Source of the DNA: a bacterium | Lineage (GTDB): Bacteria; Zhuqueibacterota; QNDG01; JAFGCO01 | Reading direction: 5' to 3' | NCBI GenBank assembly: GCA_016932575.1 | Contig: JAFGCO010000042.1 | Location: 1-64,000, forward strand | Length of the DNA stretch: 64,000 bases | Shown: one piece after another, positions 4,006 to 58,185 of the stretch | Position numbering within the stretch: the first letter of the stretch is position 1 | Layout: every line of letters starts with the position of its first letter | Program-made: the position numbers and the translations under genes | Notes under the pieces: generated by a model | The model's database searches: none | What the model saw: only the letters and a program-made list of their open reading frames with translations | Told to the model about the DNA's origin: nothing

Positions 4006-4021
4006 TGGCATGAGCATTGCT
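4006..4021 (+). promoter_or_regulatory. Sigma-54-type promoter (-24/-12)
   Basis: TGGCAT-GAGCA-TTGCT matches the sigma-54 consensus TGGCAY-N5-TTGCW at every defined position, with exact spacing between GG and GC. Transcription would start near 4032, about 50 bases upstream of the preferred start of the giant surface protein. Confidence 0.7.
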
Positions 4022-4082: not shown

Positions 4083-7000
4083 ATGTCACAGCAAACAAAA
4101 AGTCGTCTCGGGGAAATTGTTAGAATCTTATATGTGATATTTTGCTTTCCAGTCCTGTTGACAGGCGCTTCAGCGACAGTTACATGGAATCCAAATACGG
4201 AGTCGGATCTGGCGGGTTATCAGGTTCATTATGGTACCAGCCCTGGTGTTTATTCGACGATTGTCGATGTCGAAAATGTGACTGAATACAAAGCTCAAAA
4301 TCTGGTGATCGGTCAGACATATTACTTTGCAGTGACCGCATATGACAACAGCGGAAATGTCAGTGATTACTCCGAAGAGGTCAGTTATACAGCGCAGGAC
4401 GGTGTTCCCCCGACCGTGAGCAAGGCATATCTTCTGGATGTCGATCGTTTGAAAGTTATTTATTCAGAATCTGTTGATGAAGTTACCGCTGAACAAGTCA
4501 GTAATTATTCCATTAACAATAGTATTGCAATTCAGCAGGTTGAATTGCAGCCTGATCAAATCAGCGTTATTATCTATACCATTCAGCATGCAAATGGCAA
4601 TTATACATTGACAATTAACAATGTCACGGATTGTGCGCCAATTCCCAATGCAATTGCGCCGAATACGACAGCCACTTACAGCTGGGACCAAAATGATGAA
4701 ACCAAACCCACTGTGACCTCTGTGGCGCTTGTCGGCACGGATCATGTGCAGGTTAATTTCAGTGAACCTGTTGAGCAGAATTCTGCAAAGACATTAAGCA
4801 ATTACCAAATTTCAGGCGGTATCAGTATTTCAAGTGCCAGCTTGACAGATGATTTTATGTCTGTTATATTAACAACATCACAACACACACCGGGCAGCAG
4901 TTATACAATTTCTATCAGCAATGTTAAAGATGCGGCATCGAATGTCATGAATTCTGTTTCCAAGTCATATACGGCGCCTTCAGCGAATGCAGAAGCACCG
5001 CGTCTGATTGCCGTGCAGGCGGTTAATCAGAATGTGGTCGAAGTTCAATTCAGTGAGACGGTCAGCCAGACCACTGCCCAGAATGCGGGCAATTACAGTA
5101 TTCAGCCGGGAATTACAGTGATCAGCGCTTCATTGAATGCTGATAAAACCACAGTGACACTGTCAACCACTGCGCACAGCAGTGGTGATTATACGATTAC
5201 TGTCAGCGGTGTTCAGGATCAAGGGCAGCCACCACTTACCATGAATGGCGCACAATTGTCATACAATTATACACCCCCCGATAATGTTAAACCCCAGGTT
5301 GTTGATGTTGAAATCAGCAATGGCACACTTTTATTAGTCAAATTTAACGAATTGATCGATCAAAGTTCAGCCGCCAATGTCAATAATTATCAGATCAGTC
5401 CGGCAGTGTCTGTTTTAAATGCGGCCATGGACAATACGGGCATGAATGTCTATCTTATTACTGAAGAGCATCCGGCGGGGGATTTCAATCTGTCCATTTC
5501 AGGTGTAAAAGATCTCGCCCAGAATGTGATGAACAATACTTCAAGAACATATACATATGTTCCGCCGGACCGCACGCCCCCTGTGTTAACCGGCGCTGTT
5601 ATTGAAGGGGCTTCTTTTTTAGAGTTGGCCTTTAATGAGGAACTGGACCGTAACTCCGCTCAGACAATTGGCAATTATACCGTTTCTCCTTCTGTCAGTG
5701 TCACTCAGGCCGATTTGGTGAATGGAAATCATGTCTATCTTAAGACCGGGACGCATCAGTCCGGACAAAATTATACCATTACTGTCAATGGTGTCCGGGA
5801 TAAGGCCATGAATGTCATTCAATCAGGCAGCAACACAGCTTCTTATCAGGCCCCGATTGTGGATAATATTTCACCCCTTTTATCCAGTGTTGAAGTGCTG
5901 GGAGCAAAATCCATTCAATTGACATTCAGTGAGGCAATGGAAGAAGCCAGTGCCTGCCAGACAGGAAATTACAGTATTAACGGGATTACAGTCCAGGGAG
6001 CATCAATGGATCTTTCCAAGCGGACTGTTTATCTTAAGACGAGTGAACATCAGCCGGGTGTGCAGTATAAAGTGAATGTTGCCAATGTCAAAGATTTGGC
6101 AGGGAATACGGTTCCCTCAACGCAAAGCAAAATATATACACTGCCGGCTCAGGATACGCAGCCTCCACGGGTGAAAGAAGTCGATTTGCTTGGTGATGAT
6201 GTGGTGGTGATCTATTTTGATGAATCTGTGGATGCGACTTCAGCGGCACAAAAAGGCAACTATGATATCAATGGCGGCATCTCTATTCTCAGCATCAATA
6301 TTACAGGCGGTAACACTGAAGTTTGGCTCGAGACATCTGTTCATCAGAGGGGAACATATCAACTCACGGTCCGAAATATCAAAGATCAAACTGATAATGC
6401 GATGACAGCCAATACATATGAATATCAGTATTCACCGCCCGATAACGATCCGCCGGTATTGCTGGATGTCGAGGTGATTTCTCCATATACACTGGAGTTG
6501 CAGTTCAATGAAGCTCTGGATCCTGTGACTGCAGAGAATGTATCCATTTATAAAGTTGAGAATTCTGTTAATCAAGAGGTGCTGTCCGTAACCAAAGCGA
6601 TACTCGACAGAACCAACACCAAGGTTACTTTAATTACGAGTGAGCATATTCCGGGAAGTTACACGGTGACTGTCGATGGTGTAAAAGATGGGAACAGCGG
6701 TAATGTTTCAGGCAGTTTGTCTCTCGCCTATCCCTATACTCCCGCAGATAAGACACCCCCGGTTATCGAATTGGCGAGCCTAGAAACCAGCACATTACTG
6801 GCTATCCAGTTCAGTGAAGCTCTGGAAGCAGTAAGTGCTACTAAAAAAGCCAATTACACCATAAACAACGACATTACAGTCAAAAGTGTTTTTCTGAGCT
6901 CAGAGGGAGATGTCATGCTCGAAACCACAGAGCATGCAGCGGGTGAGTACACGCTGACCGTGAATGGTGTGAGAGACGCTTCCAATAATACGATTCAGCC

Positions 7001-34376: not shown

Positions 34377-34392
34377 TGGCACAGCTTTTGCC
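34377..34392 (+). promoter_or_regulatory. Sigma-54-type promoter of the chemosensory operon
   Basis: TGGCAC-AGCTT-TTGCC has a perfect -24 half and the invariant GC at -12 with correct spacing; only the last base departs from TTGCW. It lies about 115 bases upstream of the first operon gene. The palindrome AATGATCATT sits about 70 bases further upstream, a plausible place for an activator. Confidence 0.55.
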
Positions 34393-34507
34393 GAAATAGT
34401 TATCGTCTTGTAAAAAGCGGATTTAAAGGGAAAAATTTTCCTTTTGAAACACGAATTGTTCATATTGAAAGTACTGATATGTGTGTGATCGCCAAGAGGA
34501 GGAAATA

Positions 34508-34879
34508 TTGCCATTAAAAGTACTCATTGTGGATGATGATAATGGTATTCGAAAACTTCTTGGTCGTTTTTTGGAACGAGAGGGTTTTGCTACGCTTGAA
34601 GCAGAAAACGGGCTTGAGGGCGTTGAGACAGCGAAAAGGGAACAGCCTGATCTGATTATTATGGATGTTATGATGCCCCAGATGGACGGCTTAACAGCTG
34701 CCAGGCTTATTAAATTTTACAAACCGTTGAGTGAAGTCCCGATTATCTTTTTAACGGCCAAAGACGCTGAGAAAGAAATCGAATTGGCTGAAGCCACAAG
34801 AGCTGAAGCGTATGTAACCAAGCCTTTTGATGTCAGGCAGGTTATAGAGGTTGTAAAAAGTCTGTTTGAGAAAGTATAA
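34508..34879 (+). CDS. CheY-like response regulator, first gene of the chemosensory operon
   Basis: 123 residues from TTG 34508, five bases after a strong AGAGGAGG; the frame remains open to 34481 but without a site. Single receiver domain: LIVDDDNG, phospho-acceptor D53 in IIMDVMMPQMDG, T in FLTAKD and K in AYVTKPFD. Likely output of the CheA in this operon, perhaps acting on the pilus motor or on the SpoA-domain protein encoded 19 kb downstream. Confidence 0.93.
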   Translation: MPLKVLIVDDDNGIRKLLGRFLEREGFATLEAENGLEGVETAKREQPDLIIMDVMMPQMDGLTAARLIKFYKPLSEVPIIFLTAKDAEKEIELAEATRAEAYVTKPFDVRQVIEVVKSLFEKV

Positions 34880-34944
34880 CCGGTTATTATACTCGTGATA
34901 ACAGTGGAACAGGATGCGGTATTTCCAGGAGGACCTGAACCTTT

Positions 34945-35463
34945 ATGAACGAAACCAGACATTGTGTTGTTTTTTCACTTGATGAGCGGTTATTTGCATT
35001 GCCATTGTCGATCGTAGAACGGATAACGCGAGCTGTCGCAATCACTCCTTTGCCTAAATCATCGGAAGTTATTCTTGGTGTTATCAATCTTCAGGGACGG
35101 GTTATCCCTGTCGTTAATATTCGAAAGAGATTTTCATTCGATGAAAAGGGATTAAATACAGAGCAGCATTTTATTATTGGCAAGGCAAATGAAAAAGATG
35201 TAGCGATTTTGGTCGATAATGTATTGGATATCATTGAGGTTTCCAAGGATAAACTGGTCAATCAAGAAGAAATTACTTCTAATATGCCTTATATATCCGG
35301 TGTGATCAAACAAGATGAAGAGATGGTGCTTGTTCATGATTTGGACACTCTGCTGTCACTGGATGAAATTCAAAAAGTTGAAGATGTCATCAAGTCGATG
35401 GATAATGACTCGAAAAGCAAAAATCCACTAAAAACCAAGCGAAGAACACAAAGAAAGAAATAG
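34945..35463 (+). CDS. cheW: CheW-like coupling protein 1
   Basis: 172 residues. The CheW fold covers about 5-145, with FSLDERLFALPLSIVERI, GVINLQGRVIPVVNIRKRF and ILVDNVLDIIEV. It has a basic, probably disordered tail (KSKNPLKTKRRTQRKK). It couples the receptor to CheA. A second, diverged CheW is encoded at 37028. It lies 5 bases before cheR. Confidence 0.93.
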   Translation: MNETRHCVVFSLDERLFALPLSIVERITRAVAITPLPKSSEVILGVINLQGRVIPVVNIRKRFSFDEKGLNTEQHFIIGKANEKDVAILVDNVLDIIEVSKDKLVNQEEITSNMPYISGVIKQDEEMVLVHDLDTLLSLDEIQKVEDVIKSMDNDSKSKNPLKTKRRTQRKK

Positions 35464-35468
35464 CCATT

Positions 35469-37031
35469 ATGAAAAGCACACACATCAGTAAGCGCATCCC
35501 GAATGAGCTGCTTTCTCGTCTCAGCGATTTTATCAATATCAATATCGGGCTTTATTTTCCCAAAGATCGCTGGCTGGATTTGCTGCGAGGTATTCGGTCG
35601 GCCATGCCCGACTTCGGTTTTGATGATCTGGAAGAAGGAATTCGCTGGTTATTATCTAATCCGTTAAAACAAAAACAGATCGAAGTGCTGGCTTGCCATC
35701 TTACAGTTGGCGAAACGTATTTTTTCAGAGAACCCAAGACGTTTGAGGCATTGGAAAAACACATTTTACCAAAGCTTATACGAACACGCTGGCAGAACCA
35801 GAAGCGAATACGTGTATGGAGTGCGGGGTGCTGCACAGGCGAAGAGGCGTATTCGATGGCAATTTTACTCAGTCGTCTTATTCATGATATTCAGGACTGG
35901 AATATTACCATATTGGCTACTGACATCAATCCGATTTTTCTTAAAAAGGCTCAGGACGGTATCTATCGGGAATGGTCATTTCGGGGAACGCCTTTCTGGC
36001 TGAAAGAGCAGTATTTCCGAGACAGGGGGAATGGATTTTATGAAATACTGCCTCAGTTCAAACGTATGATAAAATTTCAGTATCTTAATCTGGTGGAAGA
36101 CACATTCCCTTCTATTTATAATGATACCAATGCCATGGATTTGATTTTTTGTCGAAACGTCTTGATGTATTTTTCAACCAAACAAGTCGAAAAAACCATT
36201 AGCCGATTTCATCAATCCCTGCTTGATGAAGGATGGCTGGTGACTGCGTCCAGTGAAACCTCTCATATTTTTTACTCCCAATATATCACGGTTAATTTTC
36301 CGGGTACCATTCTTTATAAGAAGGGAACATACGAGGCACAAGGGTATACGAGAATAGAAGATGGATATTCGGATAGTGCATCTCACCTTCATGAAGATGA
36401 GGATATTGTTCATTTTCCAATGATCACACCTGTCAAGATTTCCTCTCATCAGGTTTCAGAACCCCAGGAAAAACAGGCTTCATTCGTCGAAGAGCCAGAA
36501 GTCACAGCCGATAATAATGAAGAAGTTATTGAACAACTTTTTCAGGAAGCCCTTTTGACTTACAATCAGGGAAATTATATCAAAACCATTGATTTGATAT
36601 TAGGTTCGATTGTGCAATGTGAGTCATATCCGAAAATGATGACCTTGCTGGCCAAAGCGTATGCAAATCGGGGAGAATTAAATCATGCGCTCACCTGGTG
36701 CGAAAAAGCTCTCAAAGAAGATAAGTTGAATCCGGCTTTTCATCATTTACATGCTGTCATTTTACAGGAACAAGGCGAGCATGACAAGGCTGTCCATGCG
36801 TTAAGACGGGCGCTGTATCTTAATCCTGATTTTGTTTTGCCATACTTTATGCTTGGAACCCTGCAGCGCCAGCATGGCAAGCTTGTGGAAGCCGATAAGT
36901 ATTTTGAAAATGCGTTGAATATCTTAAACAATTATGAGCAAGATGATGTGCTGCCTGAATCTGAAGGGATGACTGCAGGGCGAATGTATGAGCTCATTCG
37001 TGTGACCATGAATAAGGAGATGCCGGCGTGA
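35469..37031 (+). CDS. cheR: CheR methyltransferase with C-terminal TPR domain (FrzF-like)
   Basis: 520 residues. Residues 1-285 are the CheR domain, with VGETYFFREPKTFEAL, SAM-binding VWSAGCCTGEEAYSMAI, LATDINPIFLKKAQ and LIFCRNVLMYF. A linker rich in E and S follows, then three or four TPR units (about 350-500; ALTWCEKALKEDKLNPAF, AVHALRRALYLNPDFVLP). A CheR with TPR tail is the architecture of FrzF of Myxococcus. It methylates receptor glutamates, here the MCP encoded at 37639. Its stop overlaps the next GTG start. Confidence 0.95.
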   Translation: MKSTHISKRIPNELLSRLSDFININIGLYFPKDRWLDLLRGIRSAMPDFGFDDLEEGIRWLLSNPLKQKQIEVLACHLTVGETYFFREPKTFEALEKHILPKLIRTRWQNQKRIRVWSAGCCTGEEAYSMAILLSRLIHDIQDWNITILATDINPIFLKKAQDGIYREWSFRGTPFWLKEQYFRDRGNGFYEILPQFKRMIKFQYLNLVEDTFPSIYNDTNAMDLIFCRNVLMYFSTKQVEKTISRFHQSLLDEGWLVTASSETSHIFYSQYITVNFPGTILYKKGTYEAQGYTRIEDGYSDSASHLHEDEDIVHFPMITPVKISSHQVSEPQEKQASFVEEPEVTADNNEEVIEQLFQEALLTYNQGNYIKTIDLILGSIVQCESYPKMMTLLAKAYANRGELNHALTWCEKALKEDKLNPAFHHLHAVILQEQGEHDKAVHALRRALYLNPDFVLPYFMLGTLQRQHGKLVEADKYFENALNILNNYEQDDVLPESEGMTAGRMYELIRVTMNKEMPA

Positions 37032-37564
37032 CAGAAGCCAGGATAAAAGATATCAACCGTATTTTAAAAGAACGCGCCAAAGAACTTTCTGAAGCGAGTG
37101 TTGATCAGGAAATTGTAGAAGAAAGTGTTGAAGTGGTCGAGTTTGTATTGGCGTATGAAAAATACGCCGTTGAATCTGCATATATCGATGAAGTATACCC
37201 CATGAAAGATTTTACAACCGTACCGGGGACACCTCCTTTTGTATTGGGGATTATTAATCTTCGCGGTAAAATATTATCTGTGATCGATATCCGCAAGTTT
37301 TTTGATTTACCTGTGAAAGGGCTCTCAAACCTGAATCGTGTCCTCGTTATAAAAACCCCGGAAATGGAATTGGGAATTTTATCTGATTTTATTTTAGGGG
37401 TCCATGTCATCCCAAAGAAAAGCATTCATCCCCCTATGCCTACATTAACAGGGATTCGAGCCAAATATTTACATGGTGTTACGGATGAAGGATTGGTATT
37501 ACTGGATGTGTTGAAAATATTGTCTGATCCGGAAATTATCGTTCATGACGATATCGAAGCGTAG
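37028..37564 (+). CDS. CheW-like coupling protein 2
   Basis: 178 residues from a GTG overlapping the cheR stop. A 35-residue helical N-terminal extension precedes the CheW domain (VEFVLAYEKYAVESAYIDEV, LGIINLRGKILSVIDIRKFF, LGILSDFILGVHVI). It could be an alternative coupler, or a FrzB-type protein that binds receptor but not kinase. Translational coupling with cheR suggests fixed stoichiometry. Confidence 0.9.
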   Translation: MTEARIKDINRILKERAKELSEASVDQEIVEESVEVVEFVLAYEKYAVESAYIDEVYPMKDFTTVPGTPPFVLGIINLRGKILSVIDIRKFFDLPVKGLSNLNRVLVIKTPEMELGILSDFILGVHVIPKKSIHPPMPTLTGIRAKYLHGVTDEGLVLLDVLKILSDPEIIVHDDIEA

Positions 37565-37638
37565 TATATTGTTGTTACATTACCTAATCGTGGCCCGGAG
37601 CAAGGGCTGATCTGTTTAGTCATATAAAGGGGCTTATT

Positions 37639-39249
37639 ATGCGGCTAAAACTGAACCTTTCCATGAAATTAATTTTTATCCCCGCCGTTGTTCTGGTGGC
37701 ATTTATCATTATATTCCTCATTATGAGAAATGCCATTAAAAAGAATGAGGAAATGATGAACAAAATTGTCAGGGGATATGTACCCGCCTGGGAAATAAGT
37801 CAGAATTTATTGGAATCCCTTGAAAATATCCAATACAGTCTTCAAAATGCTGTCGCTGCTGAGGATTTGGAAGAACTGACCCAGGCAGACAATTATTATC
37901 AGACATTTCTCGAGCTGGTTCAAAAACAGGCTGATAATCATGTTATTGATCAGACGGCCGAAATGAGCGAGTTGAAAAATATGGTGGAAGAGTATTATAC
38001 ACTCTCACGCGGCAATTCCCAGCGTTTGATTAAGGGAGAAACAGGTGAGCAGATGATCTGGGAATTAGAGAATATGACCAAACAATATAATAATATTAAA
38101 AACCTTCTGAATCAGAAAAATCAAATCAATAAGAAAAATATGAAAGAAAACTTCGAGAATGCCATTGAAAATAATGCAAAAGCAGAGGGTGGAATTACAA
38201 TATTGGCACTGATCGCCTTTATCTTTATTGTGGCATTTTCATGGTATATGGTCAATAGCATTACCGGACCTCTGAAATCCGCAATCCAGGTGGTGAGCCG
38301 TATATCTGAAGGTGATTTAACGATAAAGGTCAAAGAGAGTAATTCGAATGACGAAGTTGGTATTCTCATGCGGTCTTTTAAAAATATGCTGGATACCCTG
38401 CGAAATATGACTTCTCAAATTAAAGAAGCAGCCAATGGTCTGGCGACAGCCGCCAGTGAAATATCGGCCTCAGTCACGCAAATTGCTTCCAGTGCTACAG
38501 AAACGGCCACGGCTGCCAATGAAACCAGCACGACTGTTGAGGAGGTTCGTCAAACAGCGCTTGATTCCAATCGTAAGGCGAAGCATGTTTCCGAGAGTGC
38601 CCAAAAGGCCGTACAAATTTCACAAGCGGGTGAAAAATCGGTCAGTGAAACAGTGGAGGGAATGCACCGTATTGAGCAGCAGATGGAATCAATTGCACAA
38701 AGTATTATGAAGCTCAGTGAACACGGTCAGGCCATTGGTGGTATTATTGCTACTGTCGAAGACGTTGCAGAACAATCGAATCTGTTGGCTGTTAACGCCT
38801 CAATCGAAGCAGCCAAGGCGGGTGAGCAGGGAAAAGGATTTGCAGTCGTGGCGCAGGAAGTCAAGAGTCTGGCCGAACAATCGCGGCAAGCAACATTACG
38901 TGTGAGACAAATTCTGGATGACATTCAAAAGTCCACCAGCAGTGCGGTCATGACAACAGAACAGGGCTCGAAAGCGGTTGAGGCTGGCGTCGCCAAATCC
39001 AAAGAAGCCGGAGATTCCATTCAGCGTTTGGCAAACAGTGTGGGTGAGGCAGCTCAAGCGACAACGCAAATTTCTGTTTCAAGCCAGGAACAGCTGGTTG
39101 GAATGGATCAGGTGGTTTCAGCGATGGAAAGCATTAAACAGGCCAGTACTCAGAACGTGACTGCAACAAAGCAGGTTGAATCAGCGTCTCGAGATCTGCA
39201 TGATTTAGGACAGAGATTGAAACAGTTGGTTGAACAATATATTATATAA
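37639..39249 (+). CDS. Methyl-accepting chemotaxis protein, membrane bound
   Basis: 536 residues; AAGGGG upstream. TM1 at 11-29, a roughly 150-residue four-helix periplasmic sensor region, TM2 at about 184-204 ([17 protein letters not shown]), HAMP (about 205-258, [21 protein letters not shown]) and a cytoplasmic signalling helix pair with tip [20 protein letters not shown], followed by [18 protein letters not shown]. It is the only receptor in the operon and presumably its dedicated sensor. Unlike soluble FrzCD it is membrane spanning. Ligand unknown. Confidence 0.95.
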
Positions 39250-39303
39250 CCTTTCAAGTGAGTGGGCTCAATGCAGTGTTATCAACAGAAGTAAGGAGTT
39301 ATT

Positions 39304-39726
39304 ATGGGATTAGATCCTGAATTTTTTAAAGAATTACTGTCAATGTTTAAATTGGAATGTCAGGAACATATTCAAACCATGCGTGCAGGAGTGGCCACAC
39401 TGGCGGAAATTGAACCCTCTGATGAACAGGTTGAGATTTCCGAAACAATCCACAGGGCGGCTCACAGTTTAAAGGGAGCAGCCAGAACAATTGGTTTGGT
39501 TGATGTCGAGCCGATCTGTCAATCTTTGGAAAGTTGTTTTAGTGTCCTGAAACGACAAAAGGTGAAATTACCCATGGAATTGATCAGCATGCTACAGCGT
39601 GCTGTCGAAAGATTGAATGATCTTTTAGGGACCTTGGATGAAGCGGGAAAAGTAACAGGTGAAAAGTCCGAACTCACATTATTGATCGATGATATTAATG
39701 GCAAAGTTGCGACTTTAGCAAGGTAA
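39304..39726 (+). CDS. Stand-alone Hpt (phosphotransfer) protein, paralogue of the CheA N-terminus
   Basis: 140 residues forming one Hpt four-helix domain with phospho-accepting H54 in RAAHSLKGAART. It is clearly related to the Hpt domain of the adjacent CheA: both begin with FFKELLSM, and both have AHSLKGA-R and VE-x-x-CQS-x-ES. This suggests tandem duplication. It could take phosphate from CheA or the hybrid kinase and pass it to one of the receivers. Confidence 0.9.
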   Translation: MGLDPEFFKELLSMFKLECQEHIQTMRAGVATLAEIEPSDEQVEISETIHRAAHSLKGAARTIGLVDVEPICQSLESCFSVLKRQKVKLPMELISMLQRAVERLNDLLGTLDEAGKVTGEKSELTLLIDDINGKVATLAR

Positions 39727-39766
39727 ATGATAAAGAGTCAAATCAAGCTTTATTTCAGGAGAATCC

Positions 39767-42157
39767 ATGCTTAGTCAGGAAGAAGCATTTTTTAAAGAAC
39801 TTCTCTCAATGTACAAGATAGAGGCTGAAGAACATCTGAAAGCTATTTCTTCCGGTTTGATTGAAATGGAAAAAGTAAAGGCTAAGGATAAAAGGAAGTC
39901 TATTGTTGAGACAGTATATAGGGAAGCTCACAGTTTAAAAGGTGCCTCGAGAGCAGTAAATTTGGAAGATGTGGAAACAGTATGTCAATCAATGGAATCC
40001 ATTCTTTCATTAATGAAGCAAGACGCAATCGATACAAATGCTGAGTTATTTGATATTCTGTTGAAAGCTGTTGATGTGATCGATCAATTAATTAACGATT
40101 CTGAAAAAACAGATATTTCTGAGATTATGAATAAACTGCATTCTCTGGAAGAAGGAACGTCTCAGGAGAAGTCTGCAGAAAAGAAAAAAGAAAAATCAAA
40201 AAAATCCGAGGCAACGCCGGAAAAGAAAGAGAAATCTGCAGAGAAAGAGGAAGAAAAGCCAGAAGCGAAACATGAACCCCCACTGAAAGAAGAATCCGAA
40301 CCGGAGGTTCCGGAAGAACAGGAGCAGCCGAAAGCATCAGATTCGACTGCAGCTCCCAGCCAACCTGTCGAAGTGCAGAAACGGCTTGTGTCGGATACCA
40401 TTCGCATTGCTACGGAAAAACTGGATTCTCTTTTACTGCAGGCAGAGGAAATGCTGGCAGCAAAACTGACATCAGAACAACATAATAAAGATCTGCAGTC
40501 TCTTTCTTTGGAACTGGAACAATGGAAGAAACGATGGGATTCTTATGATGCAGAGATTACCAGCGCCAGGCATCAATCCGAAATAAAAGGCCATAATCAG
40601 TCGCAGGGAAATGGCACACTCATTGATTTTTTACTATGGAATCAGGAACAATTAAAATCAGTGGACACCCGTATCAATGAGTTGATTCGGATTTCTGAAA
40701 ATAACGCGCGGCTTCTTGGCGGTATGGTGAATAACCTTTTGGAAGACATGAAAAAGGTGCTGATGCTGCCGTTCTCCACTTTGCTTAAAATTCTTCCAAA
40801 GGTGGTCCGCGATCTGTCCCGTGATCAGGGAAAAGATGTTGAATTAATCGTGCGGGGAAGTACCATTGAAATTGACCGGCGTATCTTAGAGGAATTAAAA
40901 GATCCATTTATTCATGTGCTTCGCAATTGTGTGGATCATGGTCTGGAAAAGCCGGAAGAACGCCGGCGAAGCGGGAAACCTGTCACCGGGACGATTTCTA
41001 TTACCATTTCTCAGCAAAGCGGAAATAAGGTTGAAATATTAATTAACGATGATGGTCGAGGGATTGATCCGGAAAGGGTGCGTAAAGTCGCAGTGAAAAA
41101 AGGCATTGTTATTGAATCTGAAGCCGCGGCCCTAAGCGATGAAGAATGCCGTATGTTAATTTTTCAATCGGATGTTTCGACCAGTCCCATTATTACGGAT
41201 ATCTCCGGGCGTGGCCTGGGATTGCCAATTGTTCGGGAGAAAGTTGAGAAATTGGGTGGATCCTTGACACTGGAAAGTGAAGTTGGTGTTGGAACGACTT
41301 TTCAGATCACCTTGCCGGTGACCCTGGCTACCTTTCGGGGTATTATGGTGGAAGTGAATGGCCAAGTTTTTGTCATTCCAACAGTGAATGTTGAACGCGT
41401 GATTCGCGTATCTGAAGGTGATGTGAAAACTGTTGAGAATCGGGAGGCAGTGATTATTGATGATAAGCCTTTGGCATTGGCTCATTTGGGAGACGTTCTG
41501 AGGGTACCTAAAAAGAATCAAACCATTCAGCAGACAAATCTTCATCAGGCCATGTTGCTGAGTTCAGGTGAAAAACGTTTTGTATTTACTATTGATCGGA
41601 TTCTCAGTGAACAGGAAGTGTTGGTGAAGGGATTAGGCAAACAGCTTTCACGGGTCAGAAATATTGCCGGGGCGACGATATTGGGAACTGGTCAGGTGGT
41701 TCCGATTTTAAATGTTGCAGATTTGATAAAATCCGCCGCCCGAATAACAACTATCCCGACGCGTGTATCAAAAACGGAGGAAGCAAAATTGGAAAAGAAA
41801 TCTATCCTGGTTGCGGAAGATTCCATCACGTCACGGACCCTGCTAAAAAATATTCTTGAATCGGCGGGCTATGAGGTGAAAACAACCGTGGATGGCGTGG
41901 ATGCACTAACGGCTGCCCGTGCCGAACAATTTGATTTGATTGTTTCGGATATTGAAATGCCTCGCATGAACGGATTCGATCTTGTGGCGAGTATTCGTTC
42001 TGATAAAAGGACTGCTGATTTACCTGTAATTTTAGTTACAGCTCTTGAATCACGGGAGGACCGGGAGCGGGGCATTGATGTAGGTGCGAATGCCTATATT
42101 GTAAAACGAAGTTTTGATCAAAGTAATTTATTGGATGTTATCAGAAAGCTTATCTAA
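39767..42157 (+). CDS. cheA: CheA-CheY hybrid kinase (FrzE-like)
   Basis: 796 residues: Hpt (1-125, H55 in REAHSLKGASR); a K/E/P-rich linker (about 128-205) in place of a folded P2 domain; dimerisation helices; HATPase with N-box VLRNCVDHGLEKPEERR, G1 DDGRGID and G2 GRGLGLPIV; a CheW-like domain (about 525-665); and a C-terminal receiver with D728 in IVSDIEMPRMNG. The CheA-receiver fusion is that of FrzE in Myxococcus, where the receiver tunes kinase output. It is the central kinase of the operon, phosphorylating CheB, its own receiver and probably the CheY-like proteins. Confidence 0.95.
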   Translation: MLSQEEAFFKELLSMYKIEAEEHLKAISSGLIEMEKVKAKDKRKSIVETVYREAHSLKGASRAVNLEDVETVCQSMESILSLMKQDAIDTNAELFDILLKAVDVIDQLINDSEKTDISEIMNKLHSLEEGTSQEKSAEKKKEKSKKSEATPEKKEKSAEKEEEKPEAKHEPPLKEESEPEVPEEQEQPKASDSTAAPSQPVEVQKRLVSDTIRIATEKLDSLLLQAEEMLAAKLTSEQHNKDLQSLSLELEQWKKRWDSYDAEITSARHQSEIKGHNQSQGNGTLIDFLLWNQEQLKSVDTRINELIRISENNARLLGGMVNNLLEDMKKVLMLPFSTLLKILPKVVRDLSRDQGKDVELIVRGSTIEIDRRILEELKDPFIHVLRNCVDHGLEKPEERRRSGKPVTGTISITISQQSGNKVEILINDDGRGIDPERVRKVAVKKGIVIESEAAALSDEECRMLIFQSDVSTSPIITDISGRGLGLPIVREKVEKLGGSLTLESEVGVGTTFQITLPVTLATFRGIMVEVNGQVFVIPTVNVERVIRVSEGDVKTVENREAVIIDDKPLALAHLGDVLRVPKKNQTIQQTNLHQAMLLSSGEKRFVFTIDRILSEQEVLVKGLGKQLSRVRNIAGATILGTGQVVPILNVADLIKSAARITTIPTRVSKTEEAKLEKKSILVAEDSITSRTLLKNILESAGYEVKTTVDGVDALTAARAEQFDLIVSDIEMPRMNGFDLVASIRSDKRTADLPVILVTALESREDRERGIDVGANAYIVKRSFDQSNLLDVIRKLI

Positions 42158-42176
42158 GTTGTGTGGAGTGTTCTCA

Positions 42177-43238
42177 ATGATTAAAGTACTTGTTACTGAA
42201 GATTCGCCGGTTGTTCGTGGTTATTTGCAATATGTTCTAAATTCCGATCCTGATATTGAAGTGATTGGTATTGCCGAAAATGGTGAAGAAGCTGTACGCA
42301 TGGTCGAACATAACAAACCGGATGTTGTGACCATGGATATTCATATGCCGAAAATGGATGGTTTTGAAGCCACACGTCAAATTATGGAAACCAATCCTGT
42401 CCCCATTGTGATCTGCAGTGCCAGCTGGAATCCGGAAGAAGTAGACAAAACGTTTCGCACTATGGAAGCAGGCGCTGTGGCTGCCCTTGAAAAGCCGAGA
42501 GGAATGGGGCATCCGGATTCTGAAGCATCGGTTCGTGAACTGCTTCAGACAATTAAATTAATGGCCGGTGTTAAAGTTGTTAGACGATGGTCAAAAACGC
42601 GAATTAAAAAACCGGTGGAAAAAACGATCAAGGTAGCCGAAGAAGCATCAAGAGATCTTCGGTATAAGATTGTCACTATGGGCTCTTCTACTGGAGGACC
42701 CATGGTCCTGCAGACGATTCTTGCGGGTTTGCCCAAGGATTTTCCATTACCAATCATGATTGTTCAGCATATCGCACCGGGATTCTTAAGCGGTTTGGGC
42801 GAATGGTTAAGCCGAACAACCAATTTGCCGGTACATATCGCTTCTGACAATGAGGTCATTGAGCCCGGGAAGGTTTATTTGGCTCCTGATGGATACCAAA
42901 TGGGTGTGAGCCGAGATGAACGGGTAAAATTGAAAGAGGGATATAACAATTATACACTTTGTCCTTCTGTTTCATATTTATTCCAGGCTGCCTGTGAGAC
43001 TTTTGGAAGTGAGGTGATCGGTGTATTACTGACCGGTATGGGGCGTGATGGCGCGGAAGAGTTGAAGGCACTTCGGAGTCGGGGTGCGCCTACCATTGCC
43101 CAGGATAAAGAGAGTTCTGTGGTACACGGAATGCCGGGAGAAGCGATTAAATTGGGGGGAGCAACCTATGTGCTCAGCTCTTCAAATATTTCAAAAAAAT
43201 TGGTCGAACTGGTTGTCAAATCGGAAAAAAAGAAATAA
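42177..43238 (+). CDS. cheB: CheB methylesterase
   Basis: 353 residues from ATG 42177 with TGGAG upstream; the longer frame from 42114 overlaps cheA and has no site. Receiver domain 1-125 with D54 in VTMDIHMPKMDG, linker, then the esterase with catalytic triad S171 (GSSTGGPM), H198 (IVQHIAPGF) and D291 (GMGRDGAEE). It removes receptor methyl groups, counteracting the CheR-TPR protein and giving adaptation. Confidence 0.95.
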   Translation: MIKVLVTEDSPVVRGYLQYVLNSDPDIEVIGIAENGEEAVRMVEHNKPDVVTMDIHMPKMDGFEATRQIMETNPVPIVICSASWNPEEVDKTFRTMEAGAVAALEKPRGMGHPDSEASVRELLQTIKLMAGVKVVRRWSKTRIKKPVEKTIKVAEEASRDLRYKIVTMGSSTGGPMVLQTILAGLPKDFPLPIMIVQHIAPGFLSGLGEWLSRTTNLPVHIASDNEVIEPGKVYLAPDGYQMGVSRDERVKLKEGYNNYTLCPSVSYLFQAACETFGSEVIGVLLTGMGRDGAEELKALRSRGAPTIAQDKESSVVHGMPGEAIKLGGATYVLSSSNISKKLVELVVKSEKKK

Positions 43239-49589: not shown

Positions 49590-49605
49590 CGGTACTAAAT
49601 TTGCA
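49590..49605 (+). promoter_or_regulatory. Sigma-54-type promoter upstream of the FlhG-like gene
   Basis: CGGTAC-TAAAT-TTGCA keeps the invariant GG and GC at the right spacing, TAC after GG and TTGCA; only the first T is replaced by C. Predicted start near 49616, about 95 bases before the gene. Confidence 0.5.
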
Positions 49606-49712
49606 ATATTCGTTTATTCGTGGGTTTATACCCATAAATAATGAAGGATGTTTCTGATATCTGTCTTCTGCATGCTCGTTTTAAAGCTTGTTTATTCTTA
49701 AGGAATACAATG

Positions 49713-50777
49713 ATGGAGGCAAGGACGTCTTTTAGACAATCGAAGATATTTGCTGTCGCAGGGGGTAAGGGGGGCGTTGGAAAATCTGTTTTGGCAGCTT
49801 CGATGGGTATGGGGCTTGCCATGCTGCATAAACAAGTGACATTAATTGATGCAGATTTTGGGGGCGCTAATTTACATCGCATACTGGGTATGGAAAACAT
49901 AAGACGAAGCAATGTTCAGTTTTTAAGGAGAAAAGTACATTGTCTGGAAGAACTGGCAATTTCACATCCTCGGTTTAATCATCTCAAACTCATTCGTGGC
50001 ATGAATGGGTATCTCGGTGCGGCAAATTTGCCTTATAGTCAAAAGTTAAAAATGATTCGTCATATTTTCCGGCTGCCTGCAGATTATGTTATTCTTGATC
50101 TCGGTGGGGGTACGAATTATCATGTTCTGGATTTCTTTTGCGCTGCCGATGCCGGTATTGTTGTTGTTACACCCGACCCCTTAAGTATTTTGGAAGCCTA
50201 TCATTTTATCAAGCAGGCCTTTTTTCGTAAGCTGACTCAAACATTTAAAAATCAAGATAAAGTATCAGAGATTATTCAGCACTATGCCCATGAAGAGTCA
50301 CACAATCGTCATGCCAATGTGAATAATATGATGACGGAAATTCGATTAACAAACGCGGCTTTGGCAGACAAAATTCAAGATTTTCAAAAGCGTTTTCGAC
50401 CAAAGTTATTGGTCAATCATCTAAGGAAACCCGGTGAAGAGAATGAATGTATGGCTGTCATGGAAGCAGCAAAGGAATTGCTGCTGATCGATGTTGAATA
50501 TTGGGGCGCAGTTCACGATGATTCAACAGTCTATGATTCAGTTAAAGCGAGCCAGCCTTTTATCAGTTACAATTCAAAAAGCCGTGCCTCCCGCGATCTG
50601 GCGACTATTATTATTACCAAAATGTTGAAAAAAACGCATCTGCCTCATCATGAACCAAAGGATATTACAAAGCATTCGAATGCGAAACAGGAAAAAATAT
50701 GCTCGGTTCATTGTCTGTATTGGGAAACATGCGAATTTAAACGTGGTGGATATCCTTGTGATTTATTGCACTTATAA
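49713..50777 (+). CDS. MinD/FlhG-like P-loop ATPase with C-terminal cysteine cluster
   Basis: About 354 residues. TAAGGA lies 8 bases before ATG 49713 (5 before ATG 49710); the frame to 49641 lacks a site. Deviant Walker A GGKGGVGKSVLAASMG, switch I DADFGGANLHRILG, and DLGGGTNYHVLDFFCAADAG followed by VTPDPLSILEAYHFIKQAFF, a stretch typical of FlhG/MinD-like proteins that place flagella and other polar machines. The last 25 residues hold four cysteines (C-x3-C-x5-C-x8-C), a possible metal site not found in classical MinD. Inferred role: cell-pole positioning of the motility apparatus encoded around it. Confidence 0.87.
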   Translation: MEARTSFRQSKIFAVAGGKGGVGKSVLAASMGMGLAMLHKQVTLIDADFGGANLHRILGMENIRRSNVQFLRRKVHCLEELAISHPRFNHLKLIRGMNGYLGAANLPYSQKLKMIRHIFRLPADYVILDLGGGTNYHVLDFFCAADAGIVVVTPDPLSILEAYHFIKQAFFRKLTQTFKNQDKVSEIIQHYAHEESHNRHANVNNMMTEIRLTNAALADKIQDFQKRFRPKLLVNHLRKPGEENECMAVMEAAKELLLIDVEYWGAVHDDSTVYDSVKASQPFISYNSKSRASRDLATIIITKMLKKTHLPHHEPKDITKHSNAKQEKICSVHCLYWETCEFKRGGYPCDLLHL

Positions 50778-51092
50778 AATGCGGGTAAAAAAGTTGCAAT
50801 GATGATAAAAATTATCTACATTAAGTAAAAATGTGCAAGTTCTTATTAAGACGTATCTAATTATACGGTTGTCATCAAAGGTTCTAATATAATAAATAAA
50901 TGATACTGATTTACAGCGAGTGTTAAGCCATAGTGCGATTTGAGTCTTATGGATCCATACTGCTTTTGAACAGTGCTTCGGTTGCCCTTCATTATATAAC
51001 GTTATACATTCATGATCAGGTGTCACTGCTCATTCAGAATAGACGATTCAGAATGTATCATTACTCATGATTTAAAAATTGAATAGTTGGAT
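50778..51092. other. Intergenic region before the kinase/NtrC pair
   Basis: No gene. Notable points are the perfect palindrome TATAACGTTATA at 50995-51006 and TGATCA at 51013-51018, about 75-100 bases upstream of a sigma-54-type promoter, the usual place for enhancer sites. Confidence 0.45.
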
Positions 51093-51108
51093 TGGTTTCA
51101 TTTTTGCA
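51093..51108 (+). promoter_or_regulatory. Possible sigma-54-type promoter of the kinase/NtrC pair
   Basis: TGGTTT-CATTT-TTGCA has the -24 TGG, the -12 TTGCA and exact spacing, but TTT in place of CAC/TAC, so it is the weakest member of the set. It would suggest autoregulation by the NtrC-type protein. Confidence 0.4.
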
Positions 51109-51161
51109 GTTATCAAAGGGCTGTTTTTTGATTTTGTTATCTATTAGGAGCTTCTTAATTG

Positions 51162-52397
51162 ATGAGCCATCCGTCGCCAAAAAAATGTAAATGTGCAGAA
51201 TTTTTTGGGACATTCAATCAGGGAATCCCCGAAATTCAAGCCTCCTATCACGATCTAAGTCATGAAATACAAAAGCATAACAAATCTCTCGCGTTAAAAA
51301 TTCGACAGCTTGAAGACCATCTTGAAAATGCCGATTATTCACAACAGTTTTTTTATACGATTTTGGACAGTATAGACGAAGGTGTCGTGGTTGTCGATAA
51401 CCATGAGCGTATAATATTCATCAATCGCGGCGCTGAGATTTTAACAGGTTACACTCGAAAGAGTGCCGTAGGATGTTTATATAAAGAGTTGTTGGGTCAG
51501 CATCTCAGTGAGCGTTTTACACCGGCATACACTTTGAAATATAAAGAATCTCAGCTCTGTCAGGAAAAAGAAATAATATCAAAATCCAAGAAAAAAATTC
51601 CGGTTCGTTTCAGTTCATATCCCATATTTAATCGACAAGACCATTTGGCAGGCGTTATTGAAGTGATAACGGATTTAACCCGGTTAAAGCAATTGGAATC
51701 TGTTAAGCAGGAAATCAGGACGCAGGCTTCTTTAGAACAAATGGCCGGATTGATTGCCAATGAGATTCGAAATCCTCTTGAGGGTATTTTAGGCAATGTT
51801 GATGTGATTATGAAATCCTCCCACAAGGAGTGTGAGTATAAGGATCGACTGCAAGCAATAAAGACCTCTGTTGATCAGATTAATTCTGTCGTTTCCCGTT
51901 TTCAATGGTTTGCCAAATCTGTAAAACCTAACTTTGAAACACTTGATTTAATTCAATATATAAAGGAAGTATTGAAAATTTTTATTAAAAACAACCATAT
52001 CGATGAGAACAAAATAATTTTTAATTTCATCTATCCCAGATCTCATAAAACCTTTATGTGGTCTATTGATCCGGTTCTTTTGGAGCAGGTTTTATTTGAT
52101 ATATTAGATAATGGGGTGAAGGCTTTATCCGAAACCGGTACAATTACGATACACCTTTTAAGACATTCGGGTCTTTTAAAAAATGATTCAATAGAAATTG
52201 ACATATCAGATACCGGTCGGGGAATGAGCAGAAAAGAGCTAAGTCAATTGTTTACGCCATTTTATACAACGCGTGCAAGAGGGTTGGGATTGAGTCTGGC
52301 GGTTGCACGTCGTTTTATTATTCTACACCGGGGAAATATACAAGTTGAAAGCGCTGTCGGTAAAGGGAGCACGTTTAAAATCAGTTTGCCGAAATAA
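51162..52397 (+). CDS. PAS sensor kinase of the NtrB type, phospho-histidine missing
   Basis: 411 residues from ATG 51162 (AGGAG 11 bases upstream; TTG 51159 at 8 bases is possible). Coiled coil near 30-60, PAS domain (about 62-175, ILDSIDEGVVVVDNHERIIF), then a HisKA-like helix EQMAGLIANEIRNPLEGILG. The position normally occupied by the phosphorylated histidine (HEIRNPL) is asparagine, N200. The HATPase is present (N-box FDILDNGVKAL, G1 DISDTGRGMS, F-box LFTPFYTT, G2 RGLGLSLAVARRF). No membrane segment. Paired with the NtrC-type gene 16 bases downstream. It may be a phosphatase-only or signal-sequestering partner. Confidence 0.88.
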   Translation: MSHPSPKKCKCAEFFGTFNQGIPEIQASYHDLSHEIQKHNKSLALKIRQLEDHLENADYSQQFFYTILDSIDEGVVVVDNHERIIFINRGAEILTGYTRKSAVGCLYKELLGQHLSERFTPAYTLKYKESQLCQEKEIISKSKKKIPVRFSSYPIFNRQDHLAGVIEVITDLTRLKQLESVKQEIRTQASLEQMAGLIANEIRNPLEGILGNVDVIMKSSHKECEYKDRLQAIKTSVDQINSVVSRFQWFAKSVKPNFETLDLIQYIKEVLKIFIKNNHIDENKIIFNFIYPRSHKTFMWSIDPVLLEQVLFDILDNGVKALSETGTITIHLLRHSGLLKNDSIEIDISDTGRGMSRKELSQLFTPFYTTRARGLGLSLAVARRFIILHRGNIQVESAVGKGSTFKISLPK

Positions 52398-52413
52398 ATG
52401 GGGAGAACAGGCT

Positions 52414-53772
52414 ATGAAAGACCGGAGTGTTTTGGTTGTTGAAGATGACCCTATTATTCGACGTTTTATACACGACGTATTAAAACGAAAGGGTTATGAT
52501 ATACAGAGTTGTGAAAATGGACTGGCAGCTTTAGATACTATAAAGCAGAAAGAATACCAGCTTATTATCAGTGATTTGAAGATGGACGAGATTGATGGAC
52601 TGGAACTTTTGGCCCGCGTGAAAAAAATGTCTCCAAAAACGGAAGTCATCATTATCACGGCTTATGGAACAGTGTCGAATGCTGTTGAGGCGATGAAGAA
52701 AGGTGCTTTTGATTATATCATGAAACCTATAGAATTGGAGGAATTGGAAATTGTTATCGAGCGTGTATTTGAGCATCGGTCTCTTGTGGACGAAAATAAA
52801 TATTTAAAAGAGAAGCTCGAAACCAGCCATGTAACACAAAAGCTTATTGGTAAAAGTGTATTTTCACAGCGCATTCGTGAATTGATCGAAATGATAGGGC
52901 CCCTGGATTCGACTGTATTAATCATGGGTGAAACAGGAAGTGGCAAAGAAGTGGTTGCAAATGCAATTCATCAGCTGAGTCCCAGAAAAAGCCATCCCTT
53001 TATTAAGGTCAATTGCGCCGCTTTACCGGATACACTTTTAGAAAGCGAGTTATTCGGACATGAAAAAGGCGCATTTACAGGCGCATTACAGCGGACAAAA
53101 GGACGATTCGAACTTGCGGACAAAGGAACTTTACTCTTGGATGAAATTGGGGAGCTGGGAATGCAGGTTCAGGCCAAGCTCCTTAGAGCTTTGCAGTATC
53201 AACAGTTTGAACGTGTTGGCAGTGGAAAACCTGTAGATGTTGATGTACGGGTGATTACCACAACCAATCGAAACCTGAAACAGGAAGTCAAAAGGGGGGC
53301 TTTCCGTAAAGATCTGTTTTTCCGGTTGAATGTGGTCACCATCACTTTAATTCCCTTACGAGACCGGAAAGACGACATTCCTTTTTTTGTGGAATATTTT
53401 TTACAGATGTACAATCAGAAATACAAACGCAATAAAATTATTTCTGACAAAGCCATGGATTTTTTAATTCAGTATGACTGGCCCGGAAATGTCCGTGAGC
53501 TGGAAAACTGTATGGAGACTGCTGTTATTTTAAATATAGGAAAAACGTTGCTTCCCGAACATTTCATTTTTCTTGAAGATCATCGAGATTTATTGGAAGA
53601 CCAGGGAGATTTCAGTGAAGTGACAACCATAGCGGAGGCTGAAAAACAATTAATTATTAAAACCTATAAAAAGTATAATCACAATAAGACGCATGCTGCA
53701 AAGGCTCTGGGCATCACGATTAAAACCTTGCGGACCAAATTAAGAGAATATGGTTTTATCGATCAATCCTGA
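52414..53772 (+). CDS. NtrC-family sigma-54 activator
   Basis: 452 residues from ATG 52414 with GGGAGAAC upstream; an earlier start would overlap the kinase gene. Receiver 1-120 (D54 in [13 protein letters not shown] in FDYIMKPIE), AAA+ domain with Walker [17 protein letters not shown], the sigma-54 contact loop GAFTGA at about 219-224, Walker [11 protein letters not shown], and a Fis-type helix-turn-helix ([19 protein letters not shown]). It would open promoters held by RNA polymerase-sigma-54. The eight sigma-54-type sites in this window make pilus and chemosensory genes its likely targets. Confidence 0.95.
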
Positions 53773-53777
53773 AGCAT

Positions 53778-53791
53778 TTTATGATCATAAA
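53778..53791. promoter_or_regulatory. Perfect 14-bp palindrome upstream of the SpoA-domain gene
   Basis: TTTATGATCATAAA, centred on TGATCA, about 145 bases upstream of the sigma-54-type promoter at 53933. Candidate activator site; it could also be a stem after the NtrC-type gene, although there is no loop. Confidence 0.4.
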
Positions 53792-53932
53792 TATACCCTA
53801 AATAGTGAAAATCTTCCTGTTTATTATTCAATATTTTAAATATTGATTTTCTCCTATTGATATTACCATCCATAACTCATATAAAATCAGATTATTAAGA
53901 TTATAATTATTTCTGAATTAAATATGAACAGC

Positions 53933-53948
53933 TGGCACATGCCTTGCT
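53933..53948 (+). promoter_or_regulatory. Sigma-54-type promoter of the SpoA-domain gene
   Basis: TGGCAC-ATGCC-TTGCT matches the consensus at every defined base. Predicted start near 53960, 24 bases before the ATG at 53984. The site lies inside the longer frame that begins at 53924, which therefore is not the real start. Confidence 0.75.
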
Positions 53949-53983
53949 TATTGTTCTTGTATGGTAAACGAAAGGTAATTGGC

Positions 53984-54841
53984 ATGACTTCTAATGAATG
54001 CAATTCCATGTCGACAGTGGAGTCTTACCTTATTCTTGAAGCAAATCGAGCGATTTCAAATTTATTGGGCATTCGAATTCATATAAGTCCGGTGATTCAA
54101 GAAACAGTTAATAAAAGGTTTTCGGTAATAAATACCGGGTGGAATTTGGATTTTAAGTGGAATAACATGCCGGGATATTTGCGAATTTATATTGATAGTC
54201 AGGGAATTACAGAAATGCTGGCTATTGATAAAAAATATATAAGCTCGGGGGATTTAAATAAAATTTTATATCAATATGCTTTACGATTTTCTGAAGAATT
54301 GAGCAGAGGGCTCACCCGCTCCTTGATCCAACCCTGGAAAGCAGAGTTAATCGAAGTCACACCATTTTTAAAACTGGATAAAGCGATAACATCATCTAAG
54401 TTATTCCGTATTTATGAATTATATACGGGCGACCGTTTTTTATTGTATGCCGGTGTTTCGGTGGATAATCATTTGTTTCGCACTTGGCGTAATCAATGGC
54501 AGCAACGATTCAAACCCGTTGTCCCTGTTGTTTCCAATCCTGATCCGTTGTCTGTTCAATCCCATTGGCAGGATTCTCTGGAAGTCGAATTTCCAGTATC
54601 CGCAGAATTGGGTAAAACAAACATCCAACTTAAAGAAATATTGGATTTGTGTCCCGGAGATGTGCTCAGCCTGGATAAAATCGAAGAGGATCCAGTGGAT
54701 TTGTATATGAACAGTCAAAAATTTGCTGAAGGCAGAATTGTTCGTACCAATGGAAGAATCGGGATCCAGGTAACGGCCCTGATATGTCAGGAAGACCGCA
54801 TGCGTCAATTATATAAAACTGGTCAGACCCATGAAGCGTAA
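53984..54841 (+). CDS. FliN/FliM-like SpoA-domain protein
   Basis: 285 residues from ATG 53984 with AAAGG 8 bases upstream. The C-terminal 75 residues (about 195-268) read as a SpoA/FliN domain: VEFPVSAELGKTNIQLKEIL, DLCPGDVLSLDKIEEDPVDL, FAEGRIVRTNGRIGIQV. The N-terminal 190 residues are unfamiliar but could be a diverged FliM/FliY-type middle domain (GYLRIYIDSQGITEMLAIDK). SpoA domains build flagellar C-rings and type III secretion sorting platforms, and FliM/FliY bind CheY-P. No flagellar or injectisome gene is present here, yet a FlhG-like ATPase and a full chemosensory set are. A role as switch or scaffold for the pilus system is a hypothesis. Confidence 0.75.
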   Translation: MTSNECNSMSTVESYLILEANRAISNLLGIRIHISPVIQETVNKRFSVINTGWNLDFKWNNMPGYLRIYIDSQGITEMLAIDKKYISSGDLNKILYQYALRFSEELSRGLTRSLIQPWKAELIEVTPFLKLDKAITSSKLFRIYELYTGDRFLLYAGVSVDNHLFRTWRNQWQQRFKPVVPVVSNPDPLSVQSHWQDSLEVEFPVSAELGKTNIQLKEILDLCPGDVLSLDKIEEDPVDLYMNSQKFAEGRIVRTNGRIGIQVTALICQEDRMRQLYKTGQTHEA

Positions 54842-55074
54842 TAAATCAACAGTTGTTTTCTTTTTCCGCAGATTTTTAAAAAGTGAAGAGACAATGAGGC
54901 GAGTGATTCAGGCGGGGAACATTTATAGAGTAAATGGGTAAAAAAGTGTTTGGCTATTCGTCTGAATATCAGTTATTATTCTGATCAGATTCCGGATATG
55001 GTTATTTTGAAAATAGAATAATCAAATATTTAAGCCGATAAGTGGAAAAATATGAAAAAGCGTTTTATCATCAT

Positions 55075-55090
55075 TGGCATATAAGTTGCT
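55075..55090 (+). promoter_or_regulatory. Sigma-54-type promoter of the zinc-ribbon gene
   Basis: TGGCAT-ATAAG-TTGCT matches the consensus at every defined base. It lies in the otherwise empty gap 54842-55134; predicted start near 55101, 34 bases before the ATG. A TCTGATCAGA palindrome lies about 90 bases upstream at 54980-54989. Confidence 0.65.
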
Positions 55091-55134
55091 TGAATAATAA
55101 ATGACAGAGTTAAGCCTGGAAAGGATACTGAATA

Positions 55135-55323
55135 ATGCTGTATGAGTTCAAAGATCAAATTCATCGTCTCATTCCTATGCGATGCCAAATTTGTGGTTCA
55201 TGGGGACACTTCTATTCGGGGACCAAATGGATTTGCGACGCCTGTTTGGCGAAGCTGTTTGATCAGAAACGGATTTCTGTGTCTCCAGAGACCAAAGAAT
55301 ACATACAAATTTCGCTTTTCTAA
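55135..55323 (+). CDS. Small zinc-ribbon protein
   Basis: 62 residues. GGAAAGGA lies 9 bases before the ATG. Two CxxC knuckles, RCQICGSWGHF at about 16 and WICDACLAKLF at about 33, form a treble-clef or ribbon type zinc site. A short tail follows. No known family beyond that. A strong sigma-54-type promoter directly upstream and a good ribosome site argue that it is real and belongs to the same regulon as the SpoA protein. It may be an adaptor or small regulator. Confidence 0.68.
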   Translation: MLYEFKDQIHRLIPMRCQICGSWGHFYSGTKWICDACLAKLFDQKRISVSPETKEYIQISLF

Positions 55324-57629: not shown

Positions 57630-57660
57630 CCCCATTTCTTCAGTTGAATGGAGTAAAAGG

Positions 57661-58185
57661 ATGTCAAGAAAAGCAATTAAAATTGAGACAGGCATATTCG
57701 GATTGGCCCTGATTTTGACGGTTATTTTATTTGGATTCGGACGGGCCGGAAATTCGAATCATAAAGACAATGTCCAATATTATGGAGGAGAGGTTTCTTC
57801 ACGAATTGTAGGAATTCTTAATGAGATGTATTCTGAAATTCAGAATGCATCGACGTTGCATATTGCCGAACCCAACCATTTGATTTTTGAAAACAGACAG
57901 GGTGATGTTTTTGAATACAGTTATGCGTATCAGGCGATTTGGCACAATAACAAACCAATGATTATGAATATTCATGCGTTTCACTTTGAGTACCGTGACT
58001 ATACGGGGCATGCATTAAGCACGTCTCATTCAGATTTGCTGGATATAAGAACAGTCATGTTTGTCTTAAGGTTACAAAATGAACAAAAGAATATACTTGC
58101 CAATGGTCGAATTCATATTCAACAATGCTGTTACTCTTTTCATGATTCCTCGGAACCTGAGGTGCTTCTCGTGAATGCAAATTAA
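57661..58185 (+). CDS. Membrane-anchored protein resembling a GspJ/PilW head, orphan
   Basis: 174 residues from ATG 57661 with GGAG seven bases upstream; the frame open to 57625 has no site. N-terminus MSRKAIKIETG followed by a hydrophobic helix IFGLALILTVILFGFG. A class III cut after G11 is conceivable, but the +5 residue is alanine, not glutamate. The outer part follows the GspJ order seen in the product of 15485-15985: helix (IVGILNEMYSEIQNAS), strand (LIFENRQGDVFEYSY), then FHFEYRDYTGHAL and IRTVMFVLRLQNE. I infer a diverged minor pilin or pilus-associated protein; it could also be an unrelated membrane protein. Confidence 0.6.
   Translation: MSRKAIKIETGIFGLALILTVILFGFGRAGNSNHKDNVQYYGGEVSSRIVGILNEMYSEIQNASTLHIAEPNHLIFENRQGDVFEYSYAYQAIWHNNKPMIMNIHAFHFEYRDYTGHALSTSHSDLLDIRTVMFVLRLQNEQKNILANGRIHIQQCCYSFHDSSEPEVLLVNAN

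Follow-up and report, generated by a model that had tools for sequence, protein, structure and literature searches.

A FliY-like SpoA-domain protein near type IV pilus and chemosensory operons in a genome without detected flagellar core genes

What might a protein with the SpoA domain of the flagellar switch do in a bacterium in whose genome core genes of flagella and type III systems were not found, and on a stretch of DNA that carries type IV pilus and chemosensory operons? This question is raised by the gene at positions 53984 to 54841 of the window, a term that denotes here the whole analysed stretch of 64,000 nucleotides. The window belongs to contig C62 of a source genome of 4.41 Mb in 72 contigs that is 94.5% complete. 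The features relevant to the question are the following:

4006 and 17919: sigma-54-type sites before two pilus operons, the operon starting at approximately 4083 and the pilM operon
9384-30951, + strand: type IV pilus genes (PilD, PilB, PilC, pilins, PilM, PilQ, PilT)
34377-34392, + strand: sigma-54-type site TGGCACAGCTTTTGCC, ahead of the chemosensory operon
34481-43238, + strand: chemosensory operon (CheY, CheW, CheR-TPR, CheW, MCP, Hpt, CheA-receiver, CheB)
49713-50777, + strand: MinD/ParA-like ATPase with a Cys-rich C-terminal tail (alternative start at 49641)
51162-52397, + strand: PAS histidine kinase that probably pairs with the following regulator
52417-53772, + strand: NtrC/AtoC-type response regulator (receiver, sigma-54 AAA+ and Fis HTH domains by Pfam and NCBIfam), candidate activator
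53933-53949, + strand: perfect -24/-12 sigma-54-type site TGGCACATGCCTTGCT / TGGCACATGCCTTGCTT, 35 nt upstream of the SpoA gene
53984-54841, + strand: FliY-like SpoA-domain protein of 285 aa, with a predicted CheC/CheX/FliM-middle-like N-domain (residues ~1-175) and a SpoA domain (residues 199-267)
55075: sigma-54-type site before the gene of the 62-aa protein
55136-55323, + strand: 62-aa protein in which two CxxC pairs resemble, by eye, a zinc ribbon
57614: sigma-54-type site before the gene of the following short membrane protein
57658-58185, + strand: short protein with one hydrophobic segment and a weak ComGF-like match below the cut-off

The pilus genes have strong matches in both Pfam and NCBIfam; among the NCBIfam matches, those of PilT and of the prepilin leader domain alone pass the curated cut-offs, and the remaining ones score below the equivalog thresholds. 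The operon starting at approximately 4083 is headed by the gene of a 1765-aa surface protein (4083-9380) that contains Big_5 and fn3 domains and ends in a sorting tail of the Por/CHU_C type, and it continues with pilD, pilB, pilC and pilin genes. Within the chemosensory operon, CheY, CheR, CheB, MCP and CheA were assigned by Pfam matches, and the CheW and Hpt proteins were named by eye from the translations. The 62-aa protein gave no Pfam match. An earlier note on this DNA had the locus flanked by the chemosensory operon on one side and pilus genes on the other. In fact the pilus genes come first (9.4-31 kb), followed by the chemosensory region (34.5-48 kb) and then by the locus itself (49.6-55.3 kb).

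Domain composition of the 285-aa protein

The SpoA assignment of the earlier note was confirmed by a HMM search, in which the Pfam model PF01052 (FliMN_C) matched residues 199-267 with an E value of 8e-21 and 74.2 bits against a cut-off of 23.8, and by a sequence search of the PDB that returned the solved structures of FliM-FliN, FliN and FliY. The protein scored below the NCBIfam equivalog cut-offs of FliN, FliY, FliM and SctQ, with values of 56.9 against 84.05 for the FliN equivalog TIGR02480 and of 51.7 against 100.8 for the SctQ model TIGR02551. Judged by these sequence scores, the product of 53984-54841 is a SpoA protein, yet a standard member of none of the four families. Its reading frame is intact. 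An alignment revealed that 15 of the 26 conserved SpoA columns are kept, mainly core glycines and hydrophobic residues, and that 11 are altered, among them E229S, E251R, V254R and R262Q.

No Pfam family model matched residues 1-195, and hhalign comparisons of the N-terminal half with the same part of FliY, FliN-long and FliM did not rise above those of shuffled sequences. Aligned locally with three FliY proteins of spirochaetes, whose genes sit in ordinary flagellar operons, the protein can be matched back to residue 113, a position reached by one of 60 shuffles. The first structure prediction yielded a pLDDT of 48.7 with 15 sequences, and an AF2 rerun yielded 68.0 with 45 sequences, nearly all of which were FliY. 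In the model, residues 198-279 match SpoA chains, and residues 1-175 match CheX (Z 14.6), CheC (11.3), FliY (11.2; 4hyn) and the FliM middle domain (~11), with which Foldseek agrees. By this prediction, the N-terminal half would adopt the CheC/CheX/FliM-middle fold, so that the protein would have the layout of FliY; this CheC-like domain is seen in a model built largely on FliY rows, and its fold is for that reason no independent proof.

Two features of known switch and CheC proteins were looked for specifically. If the alignment is right, the CheY-docking peptide EIDALL (LSQxEIDALL) is absent, as the protein begins after the respective alignment columns. On the same condition, the catalytic Glu of the CheC ExxN sites is missing at both sites, which makes a phosphatase action unlikely, and residue 92 is the sole position to retain the Asn.

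Flagellar genes and relatives of the SpoA protein

The earlier note had found no flagellar genes in this stretch, and in the whole genome no core gene of a flagellum or an injectisome was found either. Exactly one SpoA domain was detected in the source genome, neither FlhA/SctV (PF00771) nor FliF/SctJ (PF01514) was found at its completeness of 94.5%, and no genome-wide match to FlhF (TIGR03499) exceeded the cut-off. Six-frame searches of 82 draft genomes of the phylum detected SpoA in 34 genomes and FlhA in 33. The presence of SpoA otherwise tracks that of FlhA, and SpoA without FlhA was observed in the source genome and in the genomes G055, G056 and G027. The last of these, with FliM and FliN on separate contigs, was set aside, as it probably reflects an assembly gap, i.e. 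a missing contig. Genomes G055 and G056 each encode a protein combining an FHA and a SpoA domain (L033:7055-8776, 573 aa, and L034:9387-10952, 521 aa, respectively), the latter with a weak FliM match. Next to both FHA-SpoA genes lie a gene for a secreted, fn3-like protein of ~1670 aa and a lipoprotein-like gene of ~315 aa.

A tree of the SpoA domain (78 columns, weakly resolved) grouped the 285-aa protein, at an open position, on the side of FliN and FliY and separated it from FliM (support values of 100/97). A single-protein scan of GTDB yielded no full-length relatives. The best 80 of 574 loci obtained by an alignment scan are SpoA matches, and the three loci read in detail are flagellar operons, so far as the scans made go without any relative that shares the N-terminal half outside flagellar operons. 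The protein is known from a single genome, with no orthologue found. With the terms used, no study of a pilus system with a SpoA protein turned up in the open-licence literature.

Sigma-54-type sites and the neighbouring ATPase

Potential promoters were scored with a simple weight matrix, for which the textbook consensus served as the source. The site at 53933 ranks joint first in the window, and the clear sites, to which those at 4006, 17919, 34377, 55075 and 57614 also belong, score 14.8-18.8. The ATPase gene is preceded only by the weak site CGGTACTAAATTTGCA at 49590 (score 10.5) and the PAS kinase gene by a weak site at 51093 (score 8.3); the high scores at 20842 and 21713 lie inside coding sequence and represent background. 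The statement of the earlier note that the ATPase and SpoA genes each follow a sigma-54-type promoter is consequently retained for the SpoA gene and is weak for the ATPase gene. With a fixed pattern, six of 53 genome-wide matches fell into these 64 kb, which make up 1.45% of the genome and for which 0.8 matches were expected; a reversed-pattern control gave 14 matches genome-wide. The binomial probability of six or more sites by chance is ~1.5e-4, calculated for a pattern that was picked after viewing the window. All six sites are located on the coding strand, 28-88 nt ahead of predicted starts. RpoN is present in the genome, and the elements of a sigma-54 regulon, a -24/-12 site, RpoN and an NtrC-type activator, are thus present as sequence matches. 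From these promoter sequences we infer that the SpoA gene and the operons of the type IV pilus, of pilM and of the chemosensory system may be co-regulated.

The ATPase matches MinD/FlhG-type structures in a PDB sequence search and had been called FlhG-like in the earlier note. The enhancer helix DQAxxLR, described as the FlhG-defining motif (PMC12826062), is absent from the protein. The family to which the ATPase belongs occurs in 68 of the 82 phylum genomes, including most of the FlhA-negative ones, and a second copy with 38% identity is encoded in the source genome (G000:C30:67008-68054). An identity as FlhG was ruled out by the lack of DQAxxLR, by the failure to find FlhF in the genome and by the spread of the family over flagellum-free relatives, and the protein is better described as MinD/ParA-like. 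Regions of 6-20 kb compared around the ATPase genes of relatives had no pilus or chemosensory set in common with the window and resembled it at isolated points only, for instance at one NtrC-type regulator, so that the conserved neighbourhood envisaged earlier was not seen either. On these grounds the proposed FlhG link has to be given up.

Possible roles and comparison with known systems

The failure to detect core genes of flagella and injectisomes, along with a kind of promoter that the SpoA gene shares with the pilus and chemosensory operons, suggests that a rotor protein has been reused outside the flagellum. The reading we favour, with a probability of roughly 40%, is that of a FliY-type protein that serves the pilus/chemosensory regulon as an adaptor. 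The protein would be derived from that part of the flagellar switch to which FliN and FliY belong, in a lineage possessing neither flagella nor a type III export apparatus. Its gene would be expressed from the sigma-54 promoter along with the pilus and chemosensory operons, with the neighbouring NtrC-type regulator as the probable activator. The product would most likely be a small oligomeric cytoplasmic adaptor for the pilus/chemosensory system, the CheC-like half of which may act as docking surface for the CheY-type receiver of the pathway and not as a phosphatase. Beyond co-regulation we infer all these steps, including CheY docking, oligomerisation and any effect on the pilus, and the molecular job is speculative. 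Binding of CheY is possible despite the absence of the classical docking peptide: FliN is a binding partner of CheY in E. coli, and two-hybrid and pull-down data from Xanthomonas show it bound by the type IV pilus receiver PilG (PMC7029496), which makes receiver contact without EIDALL conceivable. That the former switch protein is a working part of the pilus, an oligomeric FliY-derived adaptor relaying the chemosensory CheY signal to the pilus base, appears quite improbable.

Two other explanations are serious rivals. The gene could be a flagellar relic, i.e. the last FliY/FliN gene after loss of the flagellum, drifting or moonlighting, with a sigma-54 promoter inherited from flagellar regulation. 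Such an origin would fit the presence of flagellated members in the same order (G016-G018) and the many altered SpoA positions, and sigma-54 often drives flagellar genes. Moreover, a rotor protein is kept in 11% of non-motile species (PMC12199754). However, the flagellar FliN of the order is short, with open frames of 104-121 aa that leave no room for the N-domain, and the gene is thus not simply this FliN left behind. The intact frame, a promoter among the best-scoring of the window and the failure to find any other flagellar core gene in the genome likewise speak against a relic, which we regard as somewhat unlikely. Alternatively, the protein could act solely in chemosensing as a CheC/CheX-like sink or terminator of CheY-P for the nearby CheA pathway, with the SpoA domain serving just for dimerisation. 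The predicted CheC/CheX fold, an equivalent promoter site before the chemosensory operon and the fact that no CheX-family gene was found in the genome are consistent with this function, but the loss of the catalytic Glu at both CheC sites and the position of the gene outside the chemosensory operon render it unlikely.

The earlier note had itself combined the ATPase and the SpoA protein in a pole-organising scaffold for pili, on the grounds that both genes lie within 5 kb and that contacts of FlhG with FliM or FliY are documented (PMC12826062). With an ATPase that is not FlhG, that lacks conserved neighbours and that has only a weak promoter site, this model is highly improbable. What stands of the earlier proposal is a SpoA protein of FliY type outside the flagellum, tied to the pilus/chemosensory regulon by its sigma-54-type site; the part involving FlhG does not. 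The locus provides one concrete candidate that can be tested, an intact FliY-like gene with a promoter tying it to pilus and chemosensory operons.

A comparison with known systems delimits both proteins of the locus. The best copies of the GYF_2/MinD-like family are 35-44% identical to the ATPase of the window along the ATPase part and share its Cys-rich tail, which follows the pattern CSVxCxYWxxCxxxxGGxPCxxxHL and is conserved in the copies read. Several family copies carry a GYF_2-like segment at the N terminus, which Pfam confirmed in one case; the ATPase of the window and the copies read from the same order differ from these copies by its lack. The SpoA domain is shared with SctQ of the injectisome sorting platform, although the SctQ score remains below the cut-off here and SctV and SctJ were not detected. 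The FHA-SpoA proteins of G055 and G056 likewise represent SpoA domains in FlhA-negative genomes of the same phylum, but they differ in their N-terminal FHA domain, their size of 521-573 aa and the large secreted proteins encoded alongside. FliN of the flagellar C-ring belongs to the same side of the SpoA tree, whereas the 285-aa protein possesses an additional N-terminal domain. With SpoA domains of the FliY/FliN type the identity amounts to 31-42%, and the predicted order of a CheC-like domain followed by SpoA is that of FliY in the flagellar C-ring of Bacillus, Thermotoga and spirochaetes. The 285-aa protein is distinguished from FliY by the missing LSQxEIDALL peptide, by the lost catalytic Glu of CheC, by a genome in which no flagellar genes were found and by a sigma-54-type site that it has in common with pilus operons.
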